Assembly (NCBI RefSeq): GCF_014873145.1 | Contig: NZ_JADBEK010000001.1 | Span: forward strand, 12,896,001-12,960,000 | Direction: 5' to 3' | From: Nonomuraea angiospora | GTDB taxonomy: Bacteria > Actinomycetota > Actinomycetes > Streptosporangiales > Streptosporangiaceae | Length of the DNA: 64,000 bases | Part shown: piece after piece, positions 41,116 through 52,194 of the stretch | Layout: every line of letters starts with the position of its first letter | How positions within the stretch are numbered: position 1 is the stretch's first letter | Program-made: the position numbers and the translations under genes | Notes under the pieces: model-generated | What the model was told of the DNA's origin: nothing | The model's input: only the letters and a program-made list of their open reading frames with translations | Database searches by the model: none

Positions 41116-41868
41116 TCAGTCGAGGAGGGCGGTGAGGGTGGGGTGTTCGGCGGCGGGGATGTAGCCGGCGTAATAGTCGTACATCGCCTTCCTCGACAGG
41201 CGGGCGGCCAGCGGGCCGTCGCCGGCGCGCATGGCGGCCAGCACCTCCTCGTGGTGCCGGATGCTCTGCCGCATCAGCGCCTCCCGGTCGGGCGCGTCAG
41301 CGATCTTCTCGGAGATCAGCTTGAGCACGATCGAGCGGACCACGTCCGTGCAGATCTGGATGAGCTTGTTGCCGCTCGCCCGCGCCACCACGTCGTGGAA
41401 GGCCACGTCGGCCTCGCCGAACGAATCCTGCCCCGTCTCCACGGCGGCCCGCATGCGCGCGACGGCCGACTCCATCTCGGCGAACTGCGCGTCGGTGCGC
41501 AGCCGGGCCGCCAGCAGGATCGCCGAGGAGTCGAGCACCATCCTGAACTGCACCAGCTCGGCCAGCGACAGCTCCTCCACCCTGGCCAGCGTGGTCATCG
41601 ACTTGTGCAGCGTGGCGGGCGAGAACGGCAGCACCTCCGCCCCGTTGGGGTCGCCGGGCCGCGAGCGCACCAGGCCGCGCGCCTGCAGCACCCGCAGCGC
41701 CTCGCGCACGGTGGACCGGCTGACCGAGAACTGCACCATGAGCTCCCGCTCGCTCGGCAGCCGCTCGCCCGGTGAGAGGGAGCCGCTCTCGATGGCCTCC
41801 TCGACCTGCTCCACCACCCGCTCATAAGCGCGTACGGCACGCACCGGCTCGAACCTCGGACCACCCAT
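41116..41868 (-). CDS. GntR-family (FadR subfamily) regulator
   Basis: This is a 250-residue repressor. The winged helix is ERLPSERELMVQFSVSRSTV followed by REALRVLQARGLV. The C-terminal all-helical FCD domain has the metal-ligand region VAFHDVVARASGNKL and IRHHEEVLAAMRAGD. AAGGGGG lies before the ATG at 41868. It diverges from the peptide-type ABC operon; the palindrome at 41918, of the TGGT-N3-ACCA type bound by FadR-like proteins, lies between them, and the same 19 bases recur before the SDR gene at 51604. It should therefore govern both units and itself. Confidence 0.92.
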   Translation of the reverse strand: MGGPRFEPVRAVRAYERVVEQVEEAIESGSLSPGERLPSERELMVQFSVSRSTVREALRVLQARGLVRSRPGDPNGAEVLPFSPATLHKSMTTLARVEELSLAELVQFRMVLDSSAILLAARLRTDAQFAEMESAVARMRAAVETGQDSFGEADVAFHDVVARASGNKLIQICTDVVRSIVLKLISEKIADAPDREALMRQSIRHHEEVLAAMRAGDGPLAARLSRKAMYDYYAGYIPAAEHPTLTALLD

Positions 41869-41911
41869 GAAAGCCCCCTTGACCCGAGCCGCCGTCGACT
41901 GGCAATGTGCG

Positions 41912-41936
41912 TAGCCTACTGGTCCGACCAGTGCAC
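41912..41936. promoter_or_regulatory. GntR operator next to a -10 element
   Basis: The perfect dyad ACTGGTC-C-GACCAGT (41918-41932) directly follows TAGCCT (41912-41917), a plausible rightward -10. A repressor here would block the operon promoter. The 19 bases ACTGGTCCGACCAGTGCAC recur exactly at 51621-51639. Confidence 0.75.
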
Positions 41937-41956
41937 TAGCCAGGAGGCAGTAACAC

Positions 41957-43453
41957 ATGAGGCGAATCGGAATCTGGATCGCCGCCGGCGGTCTCCTGCT
42001 GGGCACGGCCGCCTGCGGCGGCACCTCCAGCGGCGGCGGCGGTGGGGGCACCCCCAAGTCCCAGGCCCTGTCGGTGGGATTCGTGGCCGAGCCCGCGAAC
42101 CTCGACTTCACCTCGACGGAGGGCGCCGCCATCCCGCAGGCGCTGCTCGTCAACGTCTACGAGGGCCTGGTCAAGCTCGACCAGGACGGCAAGATCGTGC
42201 CGCTGCTCGCCGAGAAGTGGGACGTCTCGCCCGACCGCAAGACCTACACGTTCAATCTGCGCAAGGACGTGAAGTTCAGCAGCGGGGCGCCGTTCACGGC
42301 CGACGACGTGGTGTTCTCGCTCGACCGGGTCAAGTCGGACTGGAAGCTCAAGATCAAGGCGCAGCTCGACGTCGTCGACAAGGTGGAGAAGAAGGACGAC
42401 TCCACCGCCGTCGTCACGCTCAAGAAGCCGAGCAACGGCTTCCTCTACTCGATGGCCACCAGGCTCGGCGCCATGTTCAGCCGCACCGGGGTCGCCGACC
42501 TGGCCAACAAGCCCGTCGGCACCGGACCGTACACGCTCGGCTCCTGGCGGCGCGGCGACTCCATCCAGCTCAACGCGAACGCCTCCTACTGGGGCACCAA
42601 GCCGCCGCTGTCGTCCATCACGCTGAAGTACTTCAAGGACGCCACGGCGATGAACAACGCGCTGCTGACCGGCGGCATCGACGTCATCTCCGCCGTGCAG
42701 GCGCCCGAGTCGCTGCAGCAGTTCGCCGACCCCAACCGCTTCCAGACGGTCGAGGGCACCACGAACGGCGAGGTCGTGCTGTCCATGAACAACAGCCGCC
42801 CGCCGTTCGACGACAAGAAGGCCAGGCAGGCCGTCCGCTACGCGATCGACCACAAGGCGCTGCTGGAGACCGCCTGGGCCGGGCGCGGCCAGCTGATCGG
42901 CTCGATGGTGCCGCCCACCGACCCCTGGTACGAGGACCGCACCGGCGACTACCCGTACGACCCGGCCAAGGCCAAGGAACTGCTCGGCGGCAAGACGCTC
43001 AACGTCAAGATGCGCATCCCCAACCTGCCGTACGCGGTGGCCAGCGCGCAGGTCGTCAAGTCGCAGCTCGCGCAGGTGGGCATCACCGCCGACATCGAGC
43101 CCCTGGAGTTCCCGGCCCGCTGGCTGGACGTGGTGTTCAAGCAGGGCGACTACGACCTGTCCATCATCAACCACGTCGAGCCCCGCGACATGGGCATATT
43201 CGCCGACAAGTCGTATTACTTCCGCTACGACAACCCCGAGTTCGGCAAGCTCCTGGCCTCCGCCGACGAGGGCACCGAGCAGCAGCAGAGCGACGACCTG
43301 AAGAAGGCCGCCAAGCTGCTGTCCGACGACGCGGCCGCCGACTGGCTCTTCCTCTTCCCCAACCTGATCGTGGCGAAGAAGGGCGTCACCGGGCTGCCGA
43401 AGAACGCCATCGCGGAGTCCTTCGACTTCACCGCGCTCTCCAAGCAGCAGTGA
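41957..43453 (+). CDS. Peptide/nickel-type (family 5) binding lipoprotein
   Basis: This is a 498-residue extracellular binding protein. The lipobox is LLGTAACGG with Cys20, followed by a Gly/Ser linker. Family 5 landmarks are LVNVYEGLVKLDQDGKIVP, WDVSPDRKTYTFNLRKDVKF, TADDVVFSLDRV and the late KARQAVRYAIDHKALL. AGGAGG lies before the ATG. It is the first gene of a nine-kilobase operon with two permeases, two ATPases, an M20 hydrolase, a P1 peptidase and an aldehyde dehydrogenase, so it probably binds a peptide-like or amide-linked nutrient. Confidence 0.92.
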   Translation: MRRIGIWIAAGGLLLGTAACGGTSSGGGGGGTPKSQALSVGFVAEPANLDFTSTEGAAIPQALLVNVYEGLVKLDQDGKIVPLLAEKWDVSPDRKTYTFNLRKDVKFSSGAPFTADDVVFSLDRVKSDWKLKIKAQLDVVDKVEKKDDSTAVVTLKKPSNGFLYSMATRLGAMFSRTGVADLANKPVGTGPYTLGSWRRGDSIQLNANASYWGTKPPLSSITLKYFKDATAMNNALLTGGIDVISAVQAPESLQQFADPNRFQTVEGTTNGEVVLSMNNSRPPFDDKKARQAVRYAIDHKALLETAWAGRGQLIGSMVPPTDPWYEDRTGDYPYDPAKAKELLGGKTLNVKMRIPNLPYAVASAQVVKSQLAQVGITADIEPLEFPARWLDVVFKQGDYDLSIINHVEPRDMGIFADKSYYFRYDNPEFGKLLASADEGTEQQQSDDLKKAAKLLSDDAAADWLFLFPNLIVAKKGVTGLPKNAIAESFDFTALSKQQ

Positions 43454-44388
43454 CGCTTTACCTGATCAAACGCCTGGCGGTGCTCGTCGCGAGCACCGCC
43501 GTGGCGGGCGTGGTGGTGTTCGCGTTCATGGCGCTGCTGCCCGGCGACCCGGCGGAGGTCGCGCTCGGGGTCAACGCCACGCCCGACGCGGTGGCGGCGC
43601 TGCGCAAGCAGTTCGGCACCGACCGGCCGCCGGTCGTGCAGTTCTTCGACTGGTTCGGCGGGCTCCTGCAGGGCGACTTCGGCACCTCGTACGTGACCAG
43701 CTCGCCCATCGGCCCGCAGATCAGCGACCGGCTCGGCGTCACGGCCGTGCTGGTGCTCGGCGGGATGCTGGTGGCGCTGGTCATCGCGGTGCCGCTCGGC
43801 ACGTTCGCGGCCGTGCACCACCGCAACCCGCTCGGCGCGGCCATCAGCGCGCTCAGCCAGGTCGGCATCGCGATCCCGGCGTTCCTGGCGGGCATCCTGC
43901 TGGTGTTCGTGTTCGCGGTGCAGGCCCAGGCGCTGCCGTCCGGCGGCTACGTGCCGATCGCCGAGGACCCGGCGCAGTGGCTGCTCGGCCTGCTGCTGCC
44001 GTGGCTGTCACTCGGCCTCGTGCAGGGCGCGGTCCTGACCCGGTACGTGCGCAGCGCCGTGCTCGACGTCATGCGCGAGGACTACCTGCGCACGGCCCGC
44101 GCCAAGGGCCGGGGAAGCACCGGCGCCCTGTGGCGGCACGGCCTGCGCAACGCCTCGATCCCCGTCGTCACCGTGCTCGGCCTGCAACTGGCCACGCTGC
44201 TGATCGGCGCGGTCGTGGTCGAGCGGGTCTTCGTCATCCCCGGGCTCGGCGACCTGCTGCTCAACGGCGTCGCCGGGCGTGACCTGCTGCTCGTCCAAGG
44301 TGTGGTGATGGTGCTGGTGGCGGCCGTCCTGCTGATCAACTTCGTGGTGGACGTGGCCTACCGCGTGCTCGATCCGAGGCTGCGATGA
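43450..44388 (+). CDS. Dipeptide-type ABC permease, DppB family
   Basis: This 312-residue inner-membrane subunit starts at a GTG overlapping the previous stop. The N-terminal segment LIKRLAVLVASTAVAGVVVF and the motif LLPGDPAEVALG are typical of DppB. The EAA-like loop is LRTARAKGRGSTGALWRHGLR. It pairs with the permease encoded next, overlapping by four bases. Confidence 0.92.
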   Translation: MTLYLIKRLAVLVASTAVAGVVVFAFMALLPGDPAEVALGVNATPDAVAALRKQFGTDRPPVVQFFDWFGGLLQGDFGTSYVTSSPIGPQISDRLGVTAVLVLGGMLVALVIAVPLGTFAAVHHRNPLGAAISALSQVGIAIPAFLAGILLVFVFAVQAQALPSGGYVPIAEDPAQWLLGLLLPWLSLGLVQGAVLTRYVRSAVLDVMREDYLRTARAKGRGSTGALWRHGLRNASIPVVTVLGLQLATLLIGAVVVERVFVIPGLGDLLLNGVAGRDLLLVQGVVMVLVAAVLLINFVVDVAYRVLDPRLR

Positions 44389-45218
44389 GGGGCCGGATGA
44401 ACGCCGGGCTGCTGGTCGGCGGCGTGCTCGTCGGGCTCGTGGCCCTGGCGGCGGTGGTGTCGTTCTTCTGGACGCCGCACGACCCGACGCTCGTGGACGC
44501 GGCGCGCAAGCTGCGGCAACCGGGCGGCGGTTACCTGCTGGGGGCCGACAAGTTCGGCCGTGACACCTTCAGCCAGATCATGGTCGGCGCCCGGACCACG
44601 CTCTACGTGGGCGTCGTGGCCGTCGGCATCGCCGCCGTCATCGGCACGCCGCTCGGCATGATCGCCGGGATGACGCCGCGCGGCTGGCTCTCCGAGCTGA
44701 TCATGCGGGTCAACGACCTGGTGTTCGCGTTCCCTGCGCTGCTGCTGGCCGTCATGCTCGGCGCGGTCTACGGGCCGGGCACGCTCACCGCGATGATCGC
44801 GATCGGCGTGGCCACCGTGCCCGCGTTCGCCCGGGTGGCCCGCGCCGCCACGCTCCAGGTCATGGTGACCGACTACATCCTGGCCGCCAGGGCCGCCGGA
44901 CGGCGCCGCCCGGCCATCGCGATGCGCCACGTCCTGCCGAACATCGGCTCCGTGCTCATCGTGCAGGCGTCGGTGTCGTTCGCGATCGCGATCCTGGCCG
45001 AGGCGGCGCTGTCGTTCCTCGGCTTCGGCACCCGCCCGCCCACCCCGTCGTGGGGGCGGATGCTGCAGGAGTCGCAGGAGCTGCTGTTCTCGACCCCGCG
45101 CCTGGCGCTCTGGCCCGGCCTGGCGATCGCGCTCGCGGTGCTCGGCTTCAACCTCCTCGGGGACGGCCTGCGCGACTACCTCGACCCAAAGCTGAGGAGG
45201 GTCCGTGCTGAGAGTTGA
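44385..45218 (+). CDS. Dipeptide-type ABC permease, DppC family
   Basis: This is the 277-residue second permease. The family mark is GADKFGRDTFSQIMVGARTT after the first membrane segment. The EAA-like loop is ILAARAAGRRRPAIAMRHVLP, and LGFGTRPPTPSWGRML lies near the C-terminus. It overlaps both neighbours, by four bases before and fourteen after. Confidence 0.92.
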   Translation: MRGRMNAGLLVGGVLVGLVALAAVVSFFWTPHDPTLVDAARKLRQPGGGYLLGADKFGRDTFSQIMVGARTTLYVGVVAVGIAAVIGTPLGMIAGMTPRGWLSELIMRVNDLVFAFPALLLAVMLGAVYGPGTLTAMIAIGVATVPAFARVARAATLQVMVTDYILAARAAGRRRPAIAMRHVLPNIGSVLIVQASVSFAIAILAEAALSFLGFGTRPPTPSWGRMLQESQELLFSTPRLALWPGLAIALAVLGFNLLGDGLRDYLDPKLRRVRAES

Positions 45219-46119
45219 GAGACTGACCGTACGGGCCGACTCCCTCGAATTGGTGCACGAGGTGTCGTTTGCGATCGGGCCCGGCGAGCGGGTCGGGCTG
45301 ATCGGCGAGTCCGGGTCCGGCAAGTCGCTGACCGCACTGTCGCTCATGGGCCTGCTCCCCGAGGGCGTCACCGCCTCGGGCAAGGCCACGATGGGCGGCA
45401 ACGACCTGGTCGGCATGCCCGAGAGCAGGCTGAAGCGGCTGCGCGGCCAGGACGTCTCCATGGTCTTCCAGGAGCCCATGACCGCGCTCAACCCGCTCAT
45501 GCGCATCGGCGCCCAGGTCACCGAGGTCATGACCCTGCACGGCACGCCGCGCGCGCAGGCCCGGGAGAAGGCGCTCGACCTGCTGGAACGCGTACGCCTG
45601 CCCGAACCGGCGCAGATCGCCCGCGCGTACCCGCACCAGCTCTCCGGCGGCCAGCGCCAGCGCGTCATGCTCGCCATCGCCCTGGCCAACCAGCCGAGCC
45701 TGCTCATCTGCGACGAGCCCACCACGGCGCTCGACGTCACCGTGCAGAAGCAGATGCTGGAGCTGATCGCCGAGGTCGCGCCCGCGCTGCTGTTCATCAC
45801 CCACGACCTGGCCGTCGTGGCGTCGGTGTGCGAGCGGGTCCTGGTCATGTACGGGGGACGCGTCGTCGAGAGCGGCCCCATCCGCGAGGTCTTCACCCGG
45901 CCCCGCCACCGCTACACCGAGGGCCTGCTGGCCGCCTCCAGGCTCACCCCGCGCGGCACCCGGCTGCCCACCATCAAGGGCAGCGTGCCGCCGGCCGGGC
46001 AGTTCCCCGGCGGCTGCGTCTTCCGCAACCGCTGCCCGCACGCCACCCCCGAGTGCGAGACCGTACCCGCGCTGACAGGAGACGGCCATGCCCACGCATG
46101 CTGGCACCCCGCTGATTGA
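45205..46119 (+). CDS. Dipeptide-type ABC ATPase, DppD family
   Basis: This 304-residue ATPase starts at a GTG three bases after AGGAGGG. Walker A is GESGSGKSLT, the Q-loop is VFQEPMTALNPLMR, the signature is LSGGQRQRVMLAIAL, Walker B is LLICDEPTTALDV and the switch His is in FITHDLAVVA. The C-terminal oligopeptide-transporter domain has the cysteine cluster GGCVFRNRCPHATPEC, as in DppD proteins that can carry an iron-sulfur cluster. It overlaps the next ATPase gene by 32 bases. Confidence 0.93.
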   Translation: MLRVERLTVRADSLELVHEVSFAIGPGERVGLIGESGSGKSLTALSLMGLLPEGVTASGKATMGGNDLVGMPESRLKRLRGQDVSMVFQEPMTALNPLMRIGAQVTEVMTLHGTPRAQAREKALDLLERVRLPEPAQIARAYPHQLSGGQRQRVMLAIALANQPSLLICDEPTTALDVTVQKQMLELIAEVAPALLFITHDLAVVASVCERVLVMYGGRVVESGPIREVFTRPRHRYTEGLLAASRLTPRGTRLPTIKGSVPPAGQFPGGCVFRNRCPHATPECETVPALTGDGHAHACWHPAD

Positions 46120-46888
46120 GGCCCGCGACGTCAGCCGCGTCTACCACCGGCCCCGCACCTCGCTCACCAGGCCGGGCGCCGCCGTGCACGCGCTCAAGGA
46201 CGTGTCGCTCACTGTCGGCCGGGGGGAGCGGTACGGCATCGTCGGCGAGTCCGGCTCCGGCAAGTCGACGCTGCTGCGCCTGCTGTGCGGGCTCGACCAG
46301 CCGACCGGCGGGTCCATCCGGTTCGACGGGCAGGAGATCGCCGGCCGGCCGGAGCGGCGGCTGCGCTTCCTGCGCGAGAACCTGCAGATCGTCTTCCAGG
46401 ACCCGATGAGCTCGCTCGACCCCCGCATGCGCGTCCGGGACCTGGTCGCCGAGCCGCTCGTCGCGCTCGGCCTGCCGGCCGGCGACCGCGTGAGCGAGCT
46501 GCTGGAGGCGGTCGGGCTGCCCGCCTCGTCCGCCGAACGGTACCCGCACCAGTTCTCCGGCGGGCAGCGCCAGCGCATCGCCATCGCCCGCGCGCTCGCG
46601 CCCCGGCCGAAGGTGCTGGTGGCCGACGAGCCGGTGAGCGCCCTGGACGTGTCCGTGCGCGGGCAGATACTCAACCTGCTGGCCGACCTCGTGGACGAGC
46701 TGGGGCTCACGCTCGTGTTCGTCTCGCACGACCTGTCCGTGGTGCGGCACGTGTGCGAGACGGTCGCGGTCATGAGCCGTGGGGAGATCGTGGAGAGCGG
46801 GCCGGTGGACGAGGTCTGGGCCGCGCCCGCCCACGCCTACACGCGTACGTTGCTGCAGGCCGTACCGACTCTGGAGGGATTGTTTTGA
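46088..46888 (+). CDS. Dipeptide-type ABC ATPase, DppF family
   Basis: This is the 266-residue second ATPase of the importer. Walker A is GESGSGKSTL, the Q-loop VFQDPMSSLDPRMR, the signature FSGGQRQRIAIARAL, Walker B VLVADEPVSALDV and the switch His FVSHDLSVVRH. It lacks the C-terminal cysteine domain of its partner. AGGAGAC precedes the ATG. Confidence 0.93.
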   Translation: MPTHAGTPLIEARDVSRVYHRPRTSLTRPGAAVHALKDVSLTVGRGERYGIVGESGSGKSTLLRLLCGLDQPTGGSIRFDGQEIAGRPERRLRFLRENLQIVFQDPMSSLDPRMRVRDLVAEPLVALGLPAGDRVSELLEAVGLPASSAERYPHQFSGGQRQRIAIARALAPRPKVLVADEPVSALDVSVRGQILNLLADLVDELGLTLVFVSHDLSVVRHVCETVAVMSRGEIVESGPVDEVWAAPAHAYTRTLLQAVPTLEGLF

Positions 46889-48057
46889 TCGACGTCGATG
46901 CCGACGGAGTGGTGGGGTTCACCCAGGAGCTGGTGCGGATCCCCAGCACCAACGACCCCGGGCGGCGCGAGCGGGCCGCCGCCGAGCTGGTGGCCGCCAA
47001 GATGCGGGAGTGGGGCTGGGAGCCCACCGTGTACGAGGTGGAGCCGGACCGGCCCAACGTGGTGGCCGTGGTCGAGGGCGGCGGCGGTGCCGGGCCGACC
47101 CTGATGTTCGAGGGCCACACGGACGTGGTGACCGAGGGCGACCTGTCCACCTGGACCGTCGACCCGTTCGGCGGGGAGATCCGCGACGGGAGGCTGTGGG
47201 GGCGGGGCAGCGCCGACATGAAGTCCGGCCTGGCCGCCACCCTCTACGCCACCCGCGCCCTGCAGCTGGCTGGACCGTTCCCCGGGCGGATCAAGGTGTG
47301 CGCGCTGGCCGACGAGGAAGGTCTCATGATCGGCGCGCACCACTTCGTCTCCGAGGGGCTGACCGCCGACGTGGACGGCGCGATCGTCGCCGAGCCCGAG
47401 GCGGGCGAGATCTGCGCGGTGGCCAAGGGCGCGCTGCGGCTGCGCGTCGACTTCGCCGGCAAGATGGCGCACGGCGCCATGCCGCAGCACGGCCGCAACC
47501 CCCTCCCCGCCGTGGGCTCGCTGCTGGTGGGCCTGGGGTCGCTGCAGGAGGAGCTGCAGGGGCGGCACCCGGCGCACGAGCACCTCGGCGAGGTGTACGT
47601 GACGCCGACCGTGCTGCGGGCCGGCTCCGAGGAGCAGGTGAACGTGATCCCGGCGGCCGCCTCGGTGTTCGTGGACGTGCGGACGATCCCCGGGGTCGAG
47701 CACAAGCTGATCGCCGACCGGGTGGCCGCGCTCGCCTCCTACGACGGGGTCGCCGCCGAGGTGTCGGTGCTGGTGGACCGGCCGCCGGTGGACGTGCCCG
47801 TGTCCGACCCGGTGGTGGCCGCCCTGGCCGCCGCCCACCGTGCCGTCACCGGCGCGGAGCCCGTCTACGGCGGGGTGCCGGGGTCGACGGACGGGACCGT
47901 GCTGACGCACTGGGGCGGGATCCCGTCCGTGGTGTACGGGCCCGGCGGGAAGTGGATCGCGCACCAGGCGGACGAGTTCGTGGAGGTGGCCCAGATCGTC
48001 CAGTGCACCCGCGTCTTCGCCGAGGCGGCCCGGCGCTTCCTCAGCGGGGACTTCTGA
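46885..48057 (+). CDS. M20-family metallohydrolase (ArgE/DapE-like)
   Basis: This is a 390-residue di-zinc deacylase or peptidase. The metal ligands are visible: His in FEGHTDVVTEG, Asp in GSADMKSGLA, the catalytic Glu pair in LADEEGLMIGAHH, Glu in VAEPEAGEI and the late His in IAHQADEFVEV. The dimerisation domain lies between them. The start is a TTG overlapping the previous stop (TTGA), six bases after GGAGGG. In this operon it probably splits an N-acyl or peptide bond of the imported compound; the exact substrate is unknown. Confidence 0.9.
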   Translation: MIDVDADGVVGFTQELVRIPSTNDPGRRERAAAELVAAKMREWGWEPTVYEVEPDRPNVVAVVEGGGGAGPTLMFEGHTDVVTEGDLSTWTVDPFGGEIRDGRLWGRGSADMKSGLAATLYATRALQLAGPFPGRIKVCALADEEGLMIGAHHFVSEGLTADVDGAIVAEPEAGEICAVAKGALRLRVDFAGKMAHGAMPQHGRNPLPAVGSLLVGLGSLQEELQGRHPAHEHLGEVYVTPTVLRAGSEEQVNVIPAAASVFVDVRTIPGVEHKLIADRVAALASYDGVAAEVSVLVDRPPVDVPVSDPVVAALAAAHRAVTGAEPVYGGVPGSTDGTVLTHWGGIPSVVYGPGGKWIAHQADEFVEVAQIVQCTRVFAEAARRFLSGDF

Positions 48058-49367
48058 TGCGCGCCGGGCCTTCCAATTCGCTGACGGACGTGGCGGGGCT
48101 CCGGGTCGGCCACGCGCAGCGGGTGGGCGGCGGTTACCGGACGGGCACCACCGTCGTCCTGGCCCCTCCTTCGGGGGCCGTGGCGGGGGTGGACGTGCGG
48201 GGCGCCGCTCCCGGGACCCGCGAGACCGAGCTGCTGGATCCGCGCAACCTGGTGTCGCGCGTGCACGCCGTGGTGCTGACGGGCGGGAGCGCGTACGGGC
48301 TGTCGGCGGCGTGCGGGGTGGTGGAGCGGCTGGCGGACGCGGGCATCGGGTATCCGGTGGCCGGCGGGGTGGTGCCCATCGTGCCGACGGCGGTCATCTT
48401 CGACCTGGGGCGCGGTGGCACGTTCCGCGCCGTCCCGGACGCCGCCTTCGGCACCGCCGCCTACGACGCCGCCACCCCGAACGCCGCCACCCCAAATGCC
48501 GCCACCCCGAACGGCGCCTCACCGGACGGCGCCGGCCCCTCCGTCGGAGTCCCCGCCCGAGGGACCGTAACCTCCGACGGCGGGGTGGCCGCTTCCCCGC
48601 CGTCCGTGGCGGGGGTCCCTTGGCGGAGAAGCGGGGCGGGTGCGCCGGACGGCGTCGTCCCCTCCACCGGAGCGTCGGCCCAAGGGACCGTCACCCCCGA
48701 CGGCGGTGCTCCGTTCACCGGCGCCTCCCTCCAAGGGACCGTCACGCCCGACGGCGGGGCGGGCGCGCACGGCGGGGCGCTCGACGGTGGGGCGGCGAGT
48801 GGGTCGGTCGGGGCCGGGGCCGGGGCGCGGGCCGGTGGGCTGGCCGGAGGGGTGGGGACGGCGAGCGTCGTCCTGCCCGGCGGCGCCACCGTGGCGGCCC
48901 TGGTCGTCGCCAACCCCGTGGGCTCGGTCCTCGACCCCCGCGACGGCACCCTCGCCGGCGCGAGGTACGGCCTGCCGGGCGAGTTCGACCACCTCCAGCC
49001 CCCGCTCCAGGCGGAGATCGACGCCTGGCGCCCCCAGAACGCCCCCTCCTTCAACACCACCATCGGCGTGGTGGCCACCGACCTCACCCTCACCAAAGCC
49101 CAGTGCGGCAAGCTCGCCGCCGTCGCCCACGACGGCCTGGCCAGGGCGATCAGGCCGGCCCACACCATGACCGACGGCGACACGATCTTCGGGCTGGCCA
49201 CCTGCGCCGGCCCCGAGCCCGACCACGACACCCTGCGGGAGGTCCTGGCAGCGGGGGCCGACGTGTTCAGCCGCGCCATCGCGCACGCCGTCCTCGCCGC
49301 CACCGGCCACGAGGACGCGCCCGCCTACCTCGACGTGTTCCCCAGCGCCCAACGGAAGCGAGCATGA
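48057..49367 (+). CDS. P1-family (DmpA/Rv1333-like) aminopeptidase with a large low-complexity insertion
   Basis: This N-terminal-nucleophile hydrolase family includes DmpA and beta-peptidyl aminopeptidases, which split off N-terminal amino acids, some of them beta. Conserved blocks resemble Rv1333: NSLTDVAGLRVGHAQRV, RGAAPGTRETELLDPRN, LTGGSAYGLSAACGVVERL, GGVGTAS before the nucleophile strand, FNTTIGVVATDLTLTKAQC and RAIRPAHTMTDGDTIFGLAT. Between residues about 138 and 247 sits an extra 110-residue Gly/Ala/Pro/Thr-rich block with repeats of AATPN and QGTVTPDGG, where Rv1333 has roughly ten residues. The total is 436 residues against about 340 for the family. The ATG shares a base with the previous stop. 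Confidence 0.88.
   Translation: MRAGPSNSLTDVAGLRVGHAQRVGGGYRTGTTVVLAPPSGAVAGVDVRGAAPGTRETELLDPRNLVSRVHAVVLTGGSAYGLSAACGVVERLADAGIGYPVAGGVVPIVPTAVIFDLGRGGTFRAVPDAAFGTAAYDAATPNAATPNAATPNGASPDGAGPSVGVPARGTVTSDGGVAASPPSVAGVPWRRSGAGAPDGVVPSTGASAQGTVTPDGGAPFTGASLQGTVTPDGGAGAHGGALDGGAASGSVGAGAGARAGGLAGGVGTASVVLPGGATVAALVVANPVGSVLDPRDGTLAGARYGLPGEFDHLQPPLQAEIDAWRPQNAPSFNTTIGVVATDLTLTKAQCGKLAAVAHDGLARAIRPAHTMTDGDTIFGLATCAGPEPDHDTLREVLAAGADVFSRAIAHAVLAATGHEDAPAYLDVFPSAQRKRA
48467..48760 (+). repeat. In-frame repeats inside the P1 peptidase gene
   Basis: Three 15-base copies of GCCGCCACCCCGAAC (from about 48467) code AATPN. Three longer copies built around GGGACCGT and CCGACGGCGG (about 48561, 48684 and 48734) code GTVTPDGG or GTVTSDGG. 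All keep the frame and lie in the insertion specific to this protein. Confidence 0.7.
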
Positions 49368-50794
49368 GCATCGACACCGCATGGCCGTCCGGCCTGCCCA
49401 TCGGCGACGGATGGGTGGAGACGGCGCAGACCGACGACGTCACCTTCCCGTACGACGGCTCCCTCGTGGCCGCGGCCCCGAGAGGCGACGCCGGCCTCGC
49501 CCGGCGGGCCGTGGACGCGGCCCTGGCCGTGGCGCCCGCCATGGCGGCGCTCCCGTCGCACGCCCGCCGCGCCGCCCTCATGAAGGCCCACGACGCGCTC
49601 GCCGCCAACCGGGAGGAGTTCGAGCGGCTGCTCGTCCTCGAGACCGGCAAACCCCTGGCCGACTGCAAGGTCGAGGTCGCCAGGACGCTCGTCACGCTGG
49701 TCACGGCCGCCGAGGAGGTCGCCCGGCTGCACGGCGAGACCGTGCCGCTCGACCTGCTGCCCTCGGGGGAAGGGCTGGTCGGGTTCTGGACGCGCCGCCC
49801 GATCGGCGTGGTCGTCGGGATCACCGGCTTCAACTACCCGCTGCTCCTCGCCGCCCACAAGATCGCGCCGGCCGTGGCCGCGGGCTGCCCCGTGATCGTC
49901 AAGCCCGCGCCCGCGACCCCGCTGGCCACGCTCTGGCTGGTGCACCTCATTCGGTCGGCCGACGCGCTCCCCCCGGCCGCCGTGCAGCTCGTCACCGGGG
50001 ACGTCGAGGTCGGCAGGACGCTGGTGGAGGACCGCCGGATCGGCGCGGTCTCGTTCACCGGCTCGGCCGCCGCCGGGCACGCCATCGCCCGCAACGCCGC
50101 CCCCACCAAGGTCCTGCTGGAGCTGGGGTCGAACGCCGCGCTCGTCGTGGCGGCCGACGCCGACCTGGAGGCCGCCGCCGACGCCGTCGTGCGCGGCGGT
50201 TACTACGCCTCCGGCCAGGCGTGCATCTCCGTCCAGCGGGTGCTGGTCGAGGAGCCCGTACGCGAGCGGTTCGTGTCCTTGCTGGCCGACCGCGTCAAGA
50301 ACGTCACGGTCGGCGACCCCCGCCTGCCGGAGACCCGCGTCGCCCCGCTCATCGACGAGGCCGCCACGGACCGCGTGCTGGAGTGGATCGCGGAGTCGGG
50401 GGGCGAGGTGGTCACGGGCGGGCACCGCGACGGCCGGGCCATCGCGCCGACCGTGCTCGCGGGCGTCGGCGACGGGGCCGCCGCCTGGGACGAGGAGATC
50501 TTCGGGCCGGTGGTGTGCGTGCGCCCGGTGCCCGACCTCGACGCCGCCTTCGCCGCCGTCAACGAGTCGCGGTACGGCCTGCACGCCTCGGTGTTCACCC
50601 GGTCGCTGGCCACGGCGTTCGCGGCCATCGAGCGGATCGAGGCCGGGGGAGTGGTGGTCAACGAGGTGCCGGGCTTCCGGGCGGACAACATGCCGTACGG
50701 CGGCGTGAAGGACTCCGGGATCGGGCGCGAGGGGCCCCGCTTCGCCATCGAGGAGCTGACCGTCACCAGGATGGCGATCATCCGGCCCGCCTAG
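49364..50794 (+). CDS. Aldehyde dehydrogenase superfamily protein
   Basis: This is a 476-residue NAD(P)-dependent dehydrogenase turning an aldehyde into an acid. The landmarks are the Asn in GITGFNYPLL, FTGSAAAGHAI, the general-base Glu in VLLELGSNAALV, the nucleophile Cys in YASGQACISVQRV and EEIFGPVVCVRPV. It overlaps the P1 peptidase gene by four bases and is the last gene of the operon, before a hairpin. Residues around the NAD site resemble succinate-semialdehyde or lactaldehyde-type enzymes, but the substrate is not fixed. Confidence 0.92.
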   Translation: MSIDTAWPSGLPIGDGWVETAQTDDVTFPYDGSLVAAAPRGDAGLARRAVDAALAVAPAMAALPSHARRAALMKAHDALAANREEFERLLVLETGKPLADCKVEVARTLVTLVTAAEEVARLHGETVPLDLLPSGEGLVGFWTRRPIGVVVGITGFNYPLLLAAHKIAPAVAAGCPVIVKPAPATPLATLWLVHLIRSADALPPAAVQLVTGDVEVGRTLVEDRRIGAVSFTGSAAAGHAIARNAAPTKVLLELGSNAALVVAADADLEAAADAVVRGGYYASGQACISVQRVLVEEPVRERFVSLLADRVKNVTVGDPRLPETRVAPLIDEAATDRVLEWIAESGGEVVTGGHRDGRAIAPTVLAGVGDGAAAWDEEIFGPVVCVRPVPDLDAAFAAVNESRYGLHASVFTRSLATAFAAIERIEAGGVVVNEVPGFRADNMPYGGVKDSGIGREGPRFAIEELTVTRMAIIRPA

Positions 50795-50805
50795 CCGGTG
50801 GTCAT

Positions 50806-50833
50806 GGCGACCGGGCCGCGGAACCCGGTCGCC
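50806..50833. terminator. Hairpin terminator after the catabolic operon
   Basis: GGCGACCGGG and its exact complement (10 bp, loop of 8) lie between the aldehyde dehydrogenase stop (50794) and the convergent SDR stop (50843), followed on the plus strand by a CT-rich run. Confidence 0.7.
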
Positions 50834-50842
50834 GGCTCCTTC

Positions 50843-51604
50843 TTAGTTGGGCGGGTCGAAGCGGCCGTCCACGGCCGTCCAGCCGCCGTCCACGTACAGG
50901 ACCGACCCGGTCACGAAGCTGGCCGCGTCGCCGGCCAGGTAGACCACCGCGCCGGCCATCTCCGGCGCCGTCGCCCACCGGCCGAGCGCGCTCTTGTTCG
51001 CGTACGCGGCGTACCAGTCGGGGTTGTCCTTGATCTGCCTGGTCAGCGGCGTCTCCACCACGCCGGGCGCGATGGCGTTCACCCGCACCCCGTGCGGCCC
51101 GAACTCGGCCGCCGCCGTCCGCAGCAGCTGCACCAGCCCCGCCTTCGTGGCCGAGTAGACGCCCTGCCCCGGCTCGGTCACGGACGCGCGGATCGAGGCG
51201 AACCCGATGATCGACCCGCGCCCCCGCTCGACCATGCCCGCCCCGAAGGCGCGCACCACGTCGAACGAGGCCCGCAGGTTCAGTCCCACCACCCGGTCGA
51301 ACTCCTCGCCGGAGTAGTCGAGCAGCCGCTTGCGGACGTTCGTGGCGGCCGTGAACACCAGCACGTCGGCGGGCTCCTCCCCGGCGGCCCTGCGCACCTC
51401 GGCGGCGTCCAGCACGTCGAGCAGCCGGGCGTGGCCGCCGCACGCGGCGGCGGTCTCCTCGGCCGAGGTCAGGTCGCGGTCGGCGCACACCACGGAGGCC
51501 CCGTGGGCGGCCAGCGCCAGCGCCGCCTCCCGGCCGATCCCGCTCCCGGCCCCGATCACCACGGCCCGCCGCCCATCCAGGCGGAACAGCGCGTCATATC
51601 CCAT
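50843..51604 (-). CDS. Short-chain dehydrogenase/reductase under the same GntR operator
   Basis: This is a 253-residue Rossmann-fold oxidoreductase. The nucleotide motif is VIGAGSGIGREAAL, the structural motif is FTAATNVR (in place of NNAG), the catalytic Ser lies in GFASIRAS, and Tyr and Lys in YSATKAGL. The C-terminus ends in VLYVDGGWTAVDGRFDPPN. I chose the ATG at 51604: a TAGGGT -10 (plus-strand 51612-51617) ends seven bases before it. A GTG at 51613 overlaps that -10. The operator at 51621 ties it to the GntR regulon and the ABC-peptidase-aldehyde dehydrogenase operon, so it may oxidise an intermediate of that route. Confidence 0.9.
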   Translation of the reverse strand: MGYDALFRLDGRRAVVIGAGSGIGREAALALAAHGASVVCADRDLTSAEETAAACGGHARLLDVLDAAEVRRAAGEEPADVLVFTAATNVRKRLLDYSGEEFDRVVGLNLRASFDVVRAFGAGMVERGRGSIIGFASIRASVTEPGQGVYSATKAGLVQLLRTAAAEFGPHGVRVNAIAPGVVETPLTRQIKDNPDWYAAYANKSALGRWATAPEMAGAVVYLAGDAASFVTGSVLYVDGGWTAVDGRFDPPN

Positions 51605-51611
51605 ACGAGGC

Positions 51612-51639
51612 ACCCTAGCGACTGGTCCGACCAGTGCAC
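51612..51639. promoter_or_regulatory. Second GntR operator with adjacent -10 element
   Basis: ACTGGTCCGACCAGTGCAC at 51621-51639 is identical over 19 bases to the site at 41918. Read leftward it lies just upstream of TAGGGT (plus-strand 51612-51617), in the promoter of the SDR gene. Confidence 0.75.
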
Positions 51640-51657
51640 CAGGTCGGGGTCAGCGTG

Positions 51658-52194
51658 TCAGCGCGCCTCCCATTCGGCGCGCGTCAGCTCGTACTCCACC
51701 TCGCCGTGCTCGGTCCCCGGCAGCGGGTCCTCCCACTCCGGATGGAACGTGCGGGCGAAGCGCAGCCCGCACTTCTCCATGACCCGCCGCGAGCGCACGT
51801 TGACGGCCATGGTCTGGGCGAAGACCCGGCGCGCGCCCAGCTCGCGGAACGCCTTGTCGATCAGCGCGAGCGAGCCCTCGGTCGCGTACCCCTTGCCCCA
51901 GGCCGACTTGTGCAGCCGGTAGCCCAGCTCCGGCTCGTCGTCCGGCACGTCCTTGGGCGCGCGCAGGTGGAACCAGCCGAGGAACGCCCCGGACGGCTTC
52001 TCGAGGGCCGCGAAGAAACCCGAGTCGATGAACCTGGGCAGCGTCTCCCGGACGATCACCTCGCGCGGCGTGGGCTTGCCGCCGTTGAGGAACTCCATGA
52101 CCTCGGGGTCGTTGTGGAGGGCGAAGAGGTGGTCGGCGTCGGACTCGGTGAAGCGGCGCAGGATCAGCCGCGGGGTCTCCAGATAGATGTGCAC
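51658..52194 (-). CDS. GNAT acetyltransferase, RimJ/RimL-like
   Basis: This 178-residue N-acetyltransferase has the ribosomal-protein-type start LETPRLILRRFTESDADHLF, the acetyl-CoA loop YRLHKSAWGKGYATEGSL and the late VNVRSRRVMEKCGLRF. The start is uncertain: a GTG at 52194, or a TTG two codons earlier at 52200, close to the upstream gene's stop at 52204. It is probably co-transcribed with that SDR gene. The acceptor is unknown. Confidence 0.87.
   Translation of the reverse strand: MHIYLETPRLILRRFTESDADHLFALHNDPEVMEFLNGGKPTPREVIVRETLPRFIDSGFFAALEKPSGAFLGWFHLRAPKDVPDDEPELGYRLHKSAWGKGYATEGSLALIDKAFRELGARRVFAQTMAVNVRSRRVMEKCGLRFARTFHPEWEDPLPGTEHGEVEYELTRAEWEAR

Follow-up and report, generated by a model that had tools for sequence, protein, structure and literature searches.

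A predicted shared GntR-type operator and candidate genes for pantothenate or pantetheine catabolism in Nonomuraea angiospora

Two operator copies at one locus

In the 64,000-nucleotide stretch of Nonomuraea angiospora DNA analysed here (the window), the gene for a GntR-type regulator stands divergent to an operon that encodes, in this order, a solute-binding protein (SBP), two permeases and two ATPases of an Opp/Dpp-type ATP-binding cassette (ABC) transporter, an M20 hydrolase, an S58 hydrolase and an aldehyde dehydrogenase (ALDH). Beyond a terminator-like stem follows a convergent gene for a short-chain dehydrogenase (SDR). The 19-mer ACTGGTCCGACCAGTGCAC is present without mismatch both between regulator and operon and at the SDR promoter (operators 1 and 2, Table 1). 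Judged from sequence comparison, this shared GntR operator very probably ties the ABC operon and the SDR gene into one regulon.

The original prediction held that the 19-mer occurs exactly twice and contains a perfect dyad. Both statements were borne out. Apart from the copies starting at positions 41918 and 51621, no third copy was detected in the window with up to three mismatches allowed (mean of 0.06 in shuffled sequences), and the core of the 19-mer is a 15-bp dyad (7+1+7), perfect save for its central base. Throughout the 13.09 Mb genome (G000) this core occurs exactly at two places only, both in the window, while base composition predicts approximately 0.025 sites of the pattern ACTGGTCNGACCAGT.

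The regulator consists of an N-terminal GntR helix-turn-helix (HTH) domain and a C-terminal FCD domain, and TGGTCCGACCA, found at both sites, fits the operator TNGTNNNACNA, which one study gives as consensus for FadR-type GntR proteins (PMC2230225). For the FadR subfamily, a second study describes TKGT/ACMA boxes in which 3 nt separate GT from AC, as well as extra half-sites near GntR motifs (PMC4494728); a possible extra half-site adjoins operator 2, and CCTGGTG recurs at the SDR operator in Nonomuraea stretches. The GntR protein is predicted to bind both operators. The arrangement resembles the LldR, PdhR, FadR and GlcC regulons in its GntR HTH and FCD domains, in the TKGT/ACMA half-sites with a 3-nt gap and in the position of a site between divergent regulator and operon. 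Unlike these, it seems to represent a new orthologous group linked to a different pathway, and a gene apart from the operon would be controlled through an additional operator copy.

Conservation of the operator and its regulator in Nonomuraea

A set of 40 Nonomuraea genomes, among them G000, supplied the stretches in which conservation was followed, and 32 of these stretches contain an SDR match; for the eight without one, the second site, among the matches listed, lies beyond the stretch. The strict dyad ACTGGTCNGACCAGT is located upstream of the SBP gene in 40/40 stretches and upstream of the SDR gene in 29/32. The three misses are L192, whose edge falls at the start of the SDR gene, L199, with a relocated SDR gene, and L208, with a single-base variant. 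While the half-sites are fixed, the central base is free (C 23, A 14 and G 3 on the SBP side; G 12, A 9, T 7 and C 1 on the SDR side), and the pattern is thus as expected of a symmetric operator. The SDR gene is convergent to the operon in 29 of the 32 stretches, and in L184 and L187, where it lies on the other strand, the dyad is retained. Across the genus, the dyad is conserved at both promoters rather than spread over arbitrary places. As a separate observation, the clusters in L199 and L208 look eroded, with S58 not found, ALDH split or not found, and the SDR operator absent or changed.

Site counts per genome, complete over 54 Nonomuraea genomes, revealed two strict sites in 45 genomes, three in 3, one in 2 and none in 4. 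A GntR ortholog is present in 50 of these genomes (completeness is only 63% for G032, and in G005 the GntR match is split in two), and the site occurs in 50/50 genomes with GntR and in 0/4 without it. Label shuffling of site versus GntR yielded a value of 1 in 316,251, a figure that ignores kinship and linkage. Because site and gntR are neighbours, and the SDR is also missing from three of the four genomes that have neither of them, this co-occurrence is partly one event and weaker than it looks. Among these four, G006 is the telling case. It retains the SBP-to-M20 genes and the SDR gene, while no GntR, S58 or ALDH match was found in its stretch; its operon site carries one change, and no site was detected at its SDR gene with up to two changes allowed.

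The operator also reaches beyond the cluster. The extra strict sites read in G003 and G026 precede an S58 gene that is not linked to the cluster and whose product begins like a signal peptide (the other G003 site is that of its SDR gene), and in 6/6 Nonomuraea genomes carrying this secreted S58 gene the operator lies upstream of it, three times exactly and three times with one change. The loci of the secreted S58 in these six genomes are L261:2438-4161, L259 and L262-L267, and the C-terminus of the L265 protein, with a hydrophobic segment and a run of Arg, resembles a membrane anchor. We also note that the 11.85 Mb sequence NZ_LT559118.1 of Nonomuraea gerenzanensis is filed among plasmids but, judging from its size, looks like a chromosome.

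Some controls weigh against this regulon. ACTGGTCNGACCAGT read backwards occurs 0-2 times per genome (45 in total over the 54 genomes, mean 0.83) and likewise twice in G000, and at two mismatches this control exceeds the pattern in G000 (117/148 for the control versus 32/34 for the pattern). Because the backwards control is this frequent, two sites per genome are not striking alone, and position, spacing and conservation carry the case. That the two 19-mers are a chance or incidental duplication without a shared regulator is, although GntR binding is a prediction and the backwards pattern is equally frequent in G000, extremely improbable, given that both promoters conserve the site while its central base varies and that the unlinked S58 gene carries it too. 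Together with the strand change in L184 and L187 and the co-occurrence of site and regulator, these data support the claim that operon and distant SDR gene form a regulon under one operator.

Further regulon members in G000 were rejected, as there are only two exact sites and five of the six one-mismatch sites lie within long open reading frames (ORFs). The sixth, L005 (G000:C1:2407029, ACTGGTCCTACCAGT), is intergenic, one base off the operator and flanked, by eye, by FCD-type GntR-like and sugar-ABC binding-protein-like ORFs. Cross-talk with another FCD-type GntR protein is possible at this site.

Features of the cluster and its relatives in other genera

The original prediction had placed a TANNNT -10 box directly beside each operator. 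Such boxes are present by eye at both sites, with AGCCT beside operator 1 in at least 95% of the 40 Nonomuraea stretches, but a sigma-70 scan of positions 41800-52000 found no promoter. At the SDR gene, TAGGGT lies 7 nt upstream of the ATG at 51604, and a similar box recurs in related genomes 6-8 nt before the ATG. This ATG is more likely to be the start than the GTG at 51613, since four of nine aligned SDR relatives start with M-x-Y. The short distance between box and ATG suggests that the SDR mRNA is possibly leaderless.

Table 1 Features of the regulator, operon and SDR region in the window. Enzyme roles given as candidate are predictions.
Feature	Position	Strand	Evidence
GntR/FCD (FadR-type) regulator, 250 aa	41116..41868	-	Pfam GntR 6.4e-22, FCD 5.9e-23
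-10-like hexamer TAGCCT (+) / TAGGCT (-), abutting operator 1	41912..41917	.	by eye
Operator 1, 15-bp dyad (41918-41932) + GCAC	41918..41936	.	sequence, genome scan, conservation
Shine-Dalgarno-like AGGAGG preceding SBP gene	41942..41947	+	sequence; recurs in Nonomuraea stretches
Opp/Dpp-type solute-binding lipoprotein (SBP_bac_5)	41957..43453	+	Pfam 1.2e-83
ABC permease, OppB type	43450..44388	+	Pfam/NCBIfam-type profile matches
ABC permease, OppC type	44385..45218	+	profile matches
ABC ATPase, OppD type	45205..46119	+	profile matches
ABC ATPase, OppF/DppF type	46088..46888	+	profile matches
M20 deacylase, ArgE/DapE family; candidate N-pantoyl-beta-alanine hydrolase	46882..48057	+	TIGR01910 261.2 bits, cutoff 217.6
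S58/P1 hydrolase with low-complexity insert; closest solved relative ThnT	48057..49367	+	ThnT/cysteine transferase 3.4e-85; Pfam S58 8.2e-54
Aldehyde dehydrogenase; candidate aldopantoate dehydrogenase	49364..50794	+	Pfam 4.6e-133
Terminator-like stem-loop between convergent ALDH and SDR genes	50805..50834	+	terminator scan (5 such sites vs 1.7 in shuffles)
SDR dehydrogenase; candidate pantoate 4-dehydrogenase	50843..51604	-	Pfam 7.8e-56
-10-like box TAGGGT of SDR gene, abutting operator 2	51612..51617	-	by eye
Operator 2, 15-bp dyad (51621-51635) + GCAC	51621..51639	.	sequence, genome scan, conservation
Possible extra half-site ACCAGGT, adjoining operator 2	51638..51644	.	recurs on SDR side

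The GntR protein of Nonomuraea jabiensis, the nearest named relative, is 97% identical to that of the window. With nine cluster relatives each, the ALDH (relatives from other genera) shares 59-70% and the SDR 65-75% identity. The S58 protein has the S58 domain and keeps the Asn-Thr stretch (N-T-T-IGVVATD), with Thr present where the ThnT entry 4ihe has Ala; this Thr after Asn is presumably the catalytic residue. ThnT, beta-peptidyl aminopeptidase and NylC belong to the same S58 family. Unlike ThnT and other S58/P1 hydrolases, the window protein contains a long low-complexity insert and is part of a seemingly catabolic operon. The insert (window positions 48440-48855) comprises about 100 residues with short imperfect repeats and seems to vary, because S58 matches in related Nonomuraea split or differ in length. 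The transporter has the five subunits typical of Opp/Dpp peptide importers, yet its subunits score below the cutoffs of the NCBIfam equivalogs compared.

SDR matches at E ≤1e-100 were found in 19/394 genomes of the class, 26/245 of the Arthrobacter-centred family and 96/297 of the Amycolatopsis-centred family. Of the latter 96, 18 belong to a weaker group (1e-105 to 1e-110), from which L234 was examined and showed no cluster. We read 77 groups outside Nonomuraea, 62 of which contain ALDH and SDR and form the count set (gene thresholds were set by us; the Arthrobacter plasmid pDCT5 was counted once). The other 15 groups were left out for an ALDH or SDR that was truncated, hidden under an overlapping match or missing. 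ALDH and SDR are a conserved pair across clusters, and their genes adjoin in most clusters read from other genera. GntR was found in 48/62 sets, Opp genes in 46/62 and a beta-decarboxylating dehydrogenase (IsoDH) of the LeuB or tartrate-dehydrogenase type in 37/62. A dyad, CTGGTnnnACCA or TGGTnnnACCAG, is present in 57/62 sets, some of them by chance, since any place in the stretch was counted.

The hydrolase differs between sets: amidase in 36, amidase and S58 in 4, HyuAB in 7, M20 in 4, M20 and S58 in 1, S58 in 1 and none found in 9 (of these, R251 and R252 have an amidase-like match at 44%, while G098 and R241 lie on short contigs). S58 thus occurs in 6/62 sets outside Nonomuraea. As no set holds two of amidase, M20 and HyuAB, these types appear to replace each other. 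Transporters differ among clusters as well (Opp, SSS, MFS).

Several neighbouring genes of possible relevance for the pathway were detected. On pDCT5, genes for IsoDH, ALDH, SDR and GntR are followed by panC (PF02569, 9.4e-96), and DUF2520, a dihydrolipoamide acyltransferase, an acyl-CoA dehydrogenase and methylcitrate genes lie near the cluster. In G892, the IsoDH gene has as neighbours a class III omega-aminotransferase gene and one for a CoA-acylating methylmalonate-semialdehyde dehydrogenase (MMSDH; 679.9 bits, cutoff 448.5), and related aminotransferases lie near four further groups. Prauserella cavernicola (L050) has genes for a CoA-transferase, a CitE-like lyase and a PanE-like reductase, which would fit dimethylmalate cleavage.

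Other neighbours were recorded as well. Two CitE-like (HpcH/HpaI) matches with 29-37% identity occur at a distance of a few kb in 10/20 stretches of the Amycolatopsis family (L215-L220, L222, L225, L229, L230); they may be plain neighbours and were left out of the pathway argument. A second, smaller GntR-type gene (GntR_s) lies near ALDH in L044, L047, L050, L053, L057, L144, L221 and L231-L233, and a gene resembling FMN-dependent lactate dehydrogenase adjoins GntR in L221 (14945) and L144 (13816-15003). A beta-propeller-like ORF in L144, considered as a lactonase, had no Pfam match above cutoff.

Candidate substrate and pathway

Pantothenate (vitamin B5) is N-pantoyl-beta-alanine. The classical route of its degradation, described in 1966 for Pseudomonas fluorescens, reportedly involves pantothenase, pantoate 4-dehydrogenase, aldopantoate dehydrogenase and dimethylmalate dehydrogenase. 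Since the hydrolase, SDR, ALDH and decarboxylating dehydrogenase of the clusters correspond to the enzyme classes of this route, the substrate of the cluster is probably pantothenate or pantetheine. Differences from the P. fluorescens route are the actinomycete origin of the clusters, the varying hydrolase type and the Nonomuraea cluster without IsoDH. In the window, the M20 and S58 hydrolases and the SDR and ALDH pair are present, their pantothenate and pantoate roles being candidate roles. Among solved structures, the LeuB-like IsoDH matches 3-isopropylmalate dehydrogenase (1w0d) best, which fits a branched malate substrate. Each of the pointers (panC, aminotransferase and MMSDH, the L050 genes, IsoDH type) occurs in few clusters, and jointly they fit one compound. 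Pantothenate, given its N-pantoyl-beta-alanine structure, agrees with the amide- or beta-peptide-linked compound of the original prediction. The "complete route" of that prediction is too strong for this genome, because the Nonomuraea cluster has no dehydrogenase for the final step.

We consider it reasonably likely, with slightly less confidence than the substrate itself, that the clusters represent genes of bacterial pantothenate or pantetheine catabolism, comprising a candidate pantothenase, pantoate 4-dehydrogenase, aldopantoate dehydrogenase, 3,3-dimethylmalate dehydrogenase and one FadR-type regulator, and that the secreted S58 extends the regulon outside the cell in a few Nonomuraea. 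The candidate pantothenase would then span three or four unrelated, mutually replacing hydrolase families, and the 3,3-dimethylmalate dehydrogenase would partly be a LeuB-like duplicate.

A number of observations weigh against pantothenate. No IsoDH, here the beta-decarboxylating dimethylmalate dehydrogenase, was found in the window or the Nonomuraea stretches. The IsoDH paralogs of G000 do not exceed about 50% identity with the TTC-like cluster type at full length (with the partial L036, 55% over 127 residues), and the LeuB of this genome shares 52-57% with the LeuB-like type, so that neither cluster type has a close ortholog; within about 1.5 kb on each side of four G000 IsoDH paralogs, no operator with up to two half-site changes was detected. 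panC occurs in one sampled cluster only, that of pDCT5, which is without the TGGTnnnACCA dyad, and the window contains no linked panC match. Neither the window nor the Nonomuraea stretches contain an aminotransferase or MMSDH match; the aminotransferase is near 5/77 groups, one of which (G959) is without the core ALDH, and among solved structures the aminotransferase matches a taurine enzyme best. HyuAB would be unexpected as a pantothenase, the similarity of the Streptomyces SSS transporter to PanF is below cutoff (77.2 versus 328 bits), and we know of no precedent for Opp-type pantothenate uptake. The classical pantothenate work was reportedly done in Pseudomonas, yet a search of 398 genomes from the Allosediminivita phylum did not find the cluster. 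SDR matches in 6 of these 398 genomes (about 1e-82) were rejected as background, because the four examined have no ALDH match nearby.

The same regulon could instead serve another amide or N-acyl amino acid with a hydroxy-acid acyl part, such as an N-acyl peptide or a lactam. Hydrolases and transporters that vary among genera, and hydrolase families with many specificities, speak for this alternative, which we regard as possible but doubtful. panC with DUF2520, acyl-CoA and methylcitrate genes, and the omega-aminotransferase with the methylmalonate-semialdehyde-type dehydrogenase, stand beside the same core and speak against it, as all of them fit one compound, though each occurs in few clusters. 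Degradation of nylon-like or beta-peptide oligomers by the S58 hydrolase is improbable. The S58 protein does match nylon hydrolases (nylon-66 (PA66) hydrolase 8.2e-44; NylC-type 1.8e-16 and weaker), and the secreted paralog bears the operator in six genomes, but ThnT, a pantetheine hydrolase, is much closer, S58 is rare in clusters outside Nonomuraea, and SDR and IsoDH would have no evident role. An identity of the S58 protein as NylC-type nylon oligomer hydrolase is accordingly not supported. Nylon, hydantoin and lactam substrates all appear less likely.

For pantothenate or pantetheine as substrate, the following mechanism may be proposed, in which all enzyme roles are inferred from sequence. 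At two promoters the FadR-type regulator would bind ACTGGTCNGACCAGT; it would most likely act as a repressor that is released by an acid of the pathway. The first promoter region would be common to gntR itself and the divergent eight-gene operon, the second would serve the detached SDR gene with its own operator copy. After Opp-type uptake of pantothenate or pantetheine, the amide would be cleaved by the ThnT-like S58 hydrolase in the case of pantetheine-type amides and by the M20 hydrolase in the case of N-pantoyl-beta-alanine. The SDR would convert pantoate to aldopantoate and the ALDH aldopantoate to 3,3-dimethylmalate, from which 2-oxoisovalerate would be formed by the beta-decarboxylating dehydrogenase that many clusters outside Nonomuraea encode.

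A FadR-type catabolic regulon is a known kind of system; the added interest comes from the candidate genes that it offers for an orphan pathway. In a search confined to open papers, mostly listings, we found no gene names for the pantothenate degradation route, and no paper on a bacterial dehydrogenase of aldopantoate or pantothenate catabolism was found in the open literature. A 2023 publication states that the protein identity of pantothenase was still unknown (PMC10393543), 57 years after the activity papers of 1966. With two strict sites in most Nonomuraea genomes, the regulon is a clean test case. If the assignment is true, the clusters provide candidates for the whole breakdown route of vitamin B5, together with a predicted regulator and its exact operators, and one pathway would keep its core while swapping its first enzyme among unrelated families.

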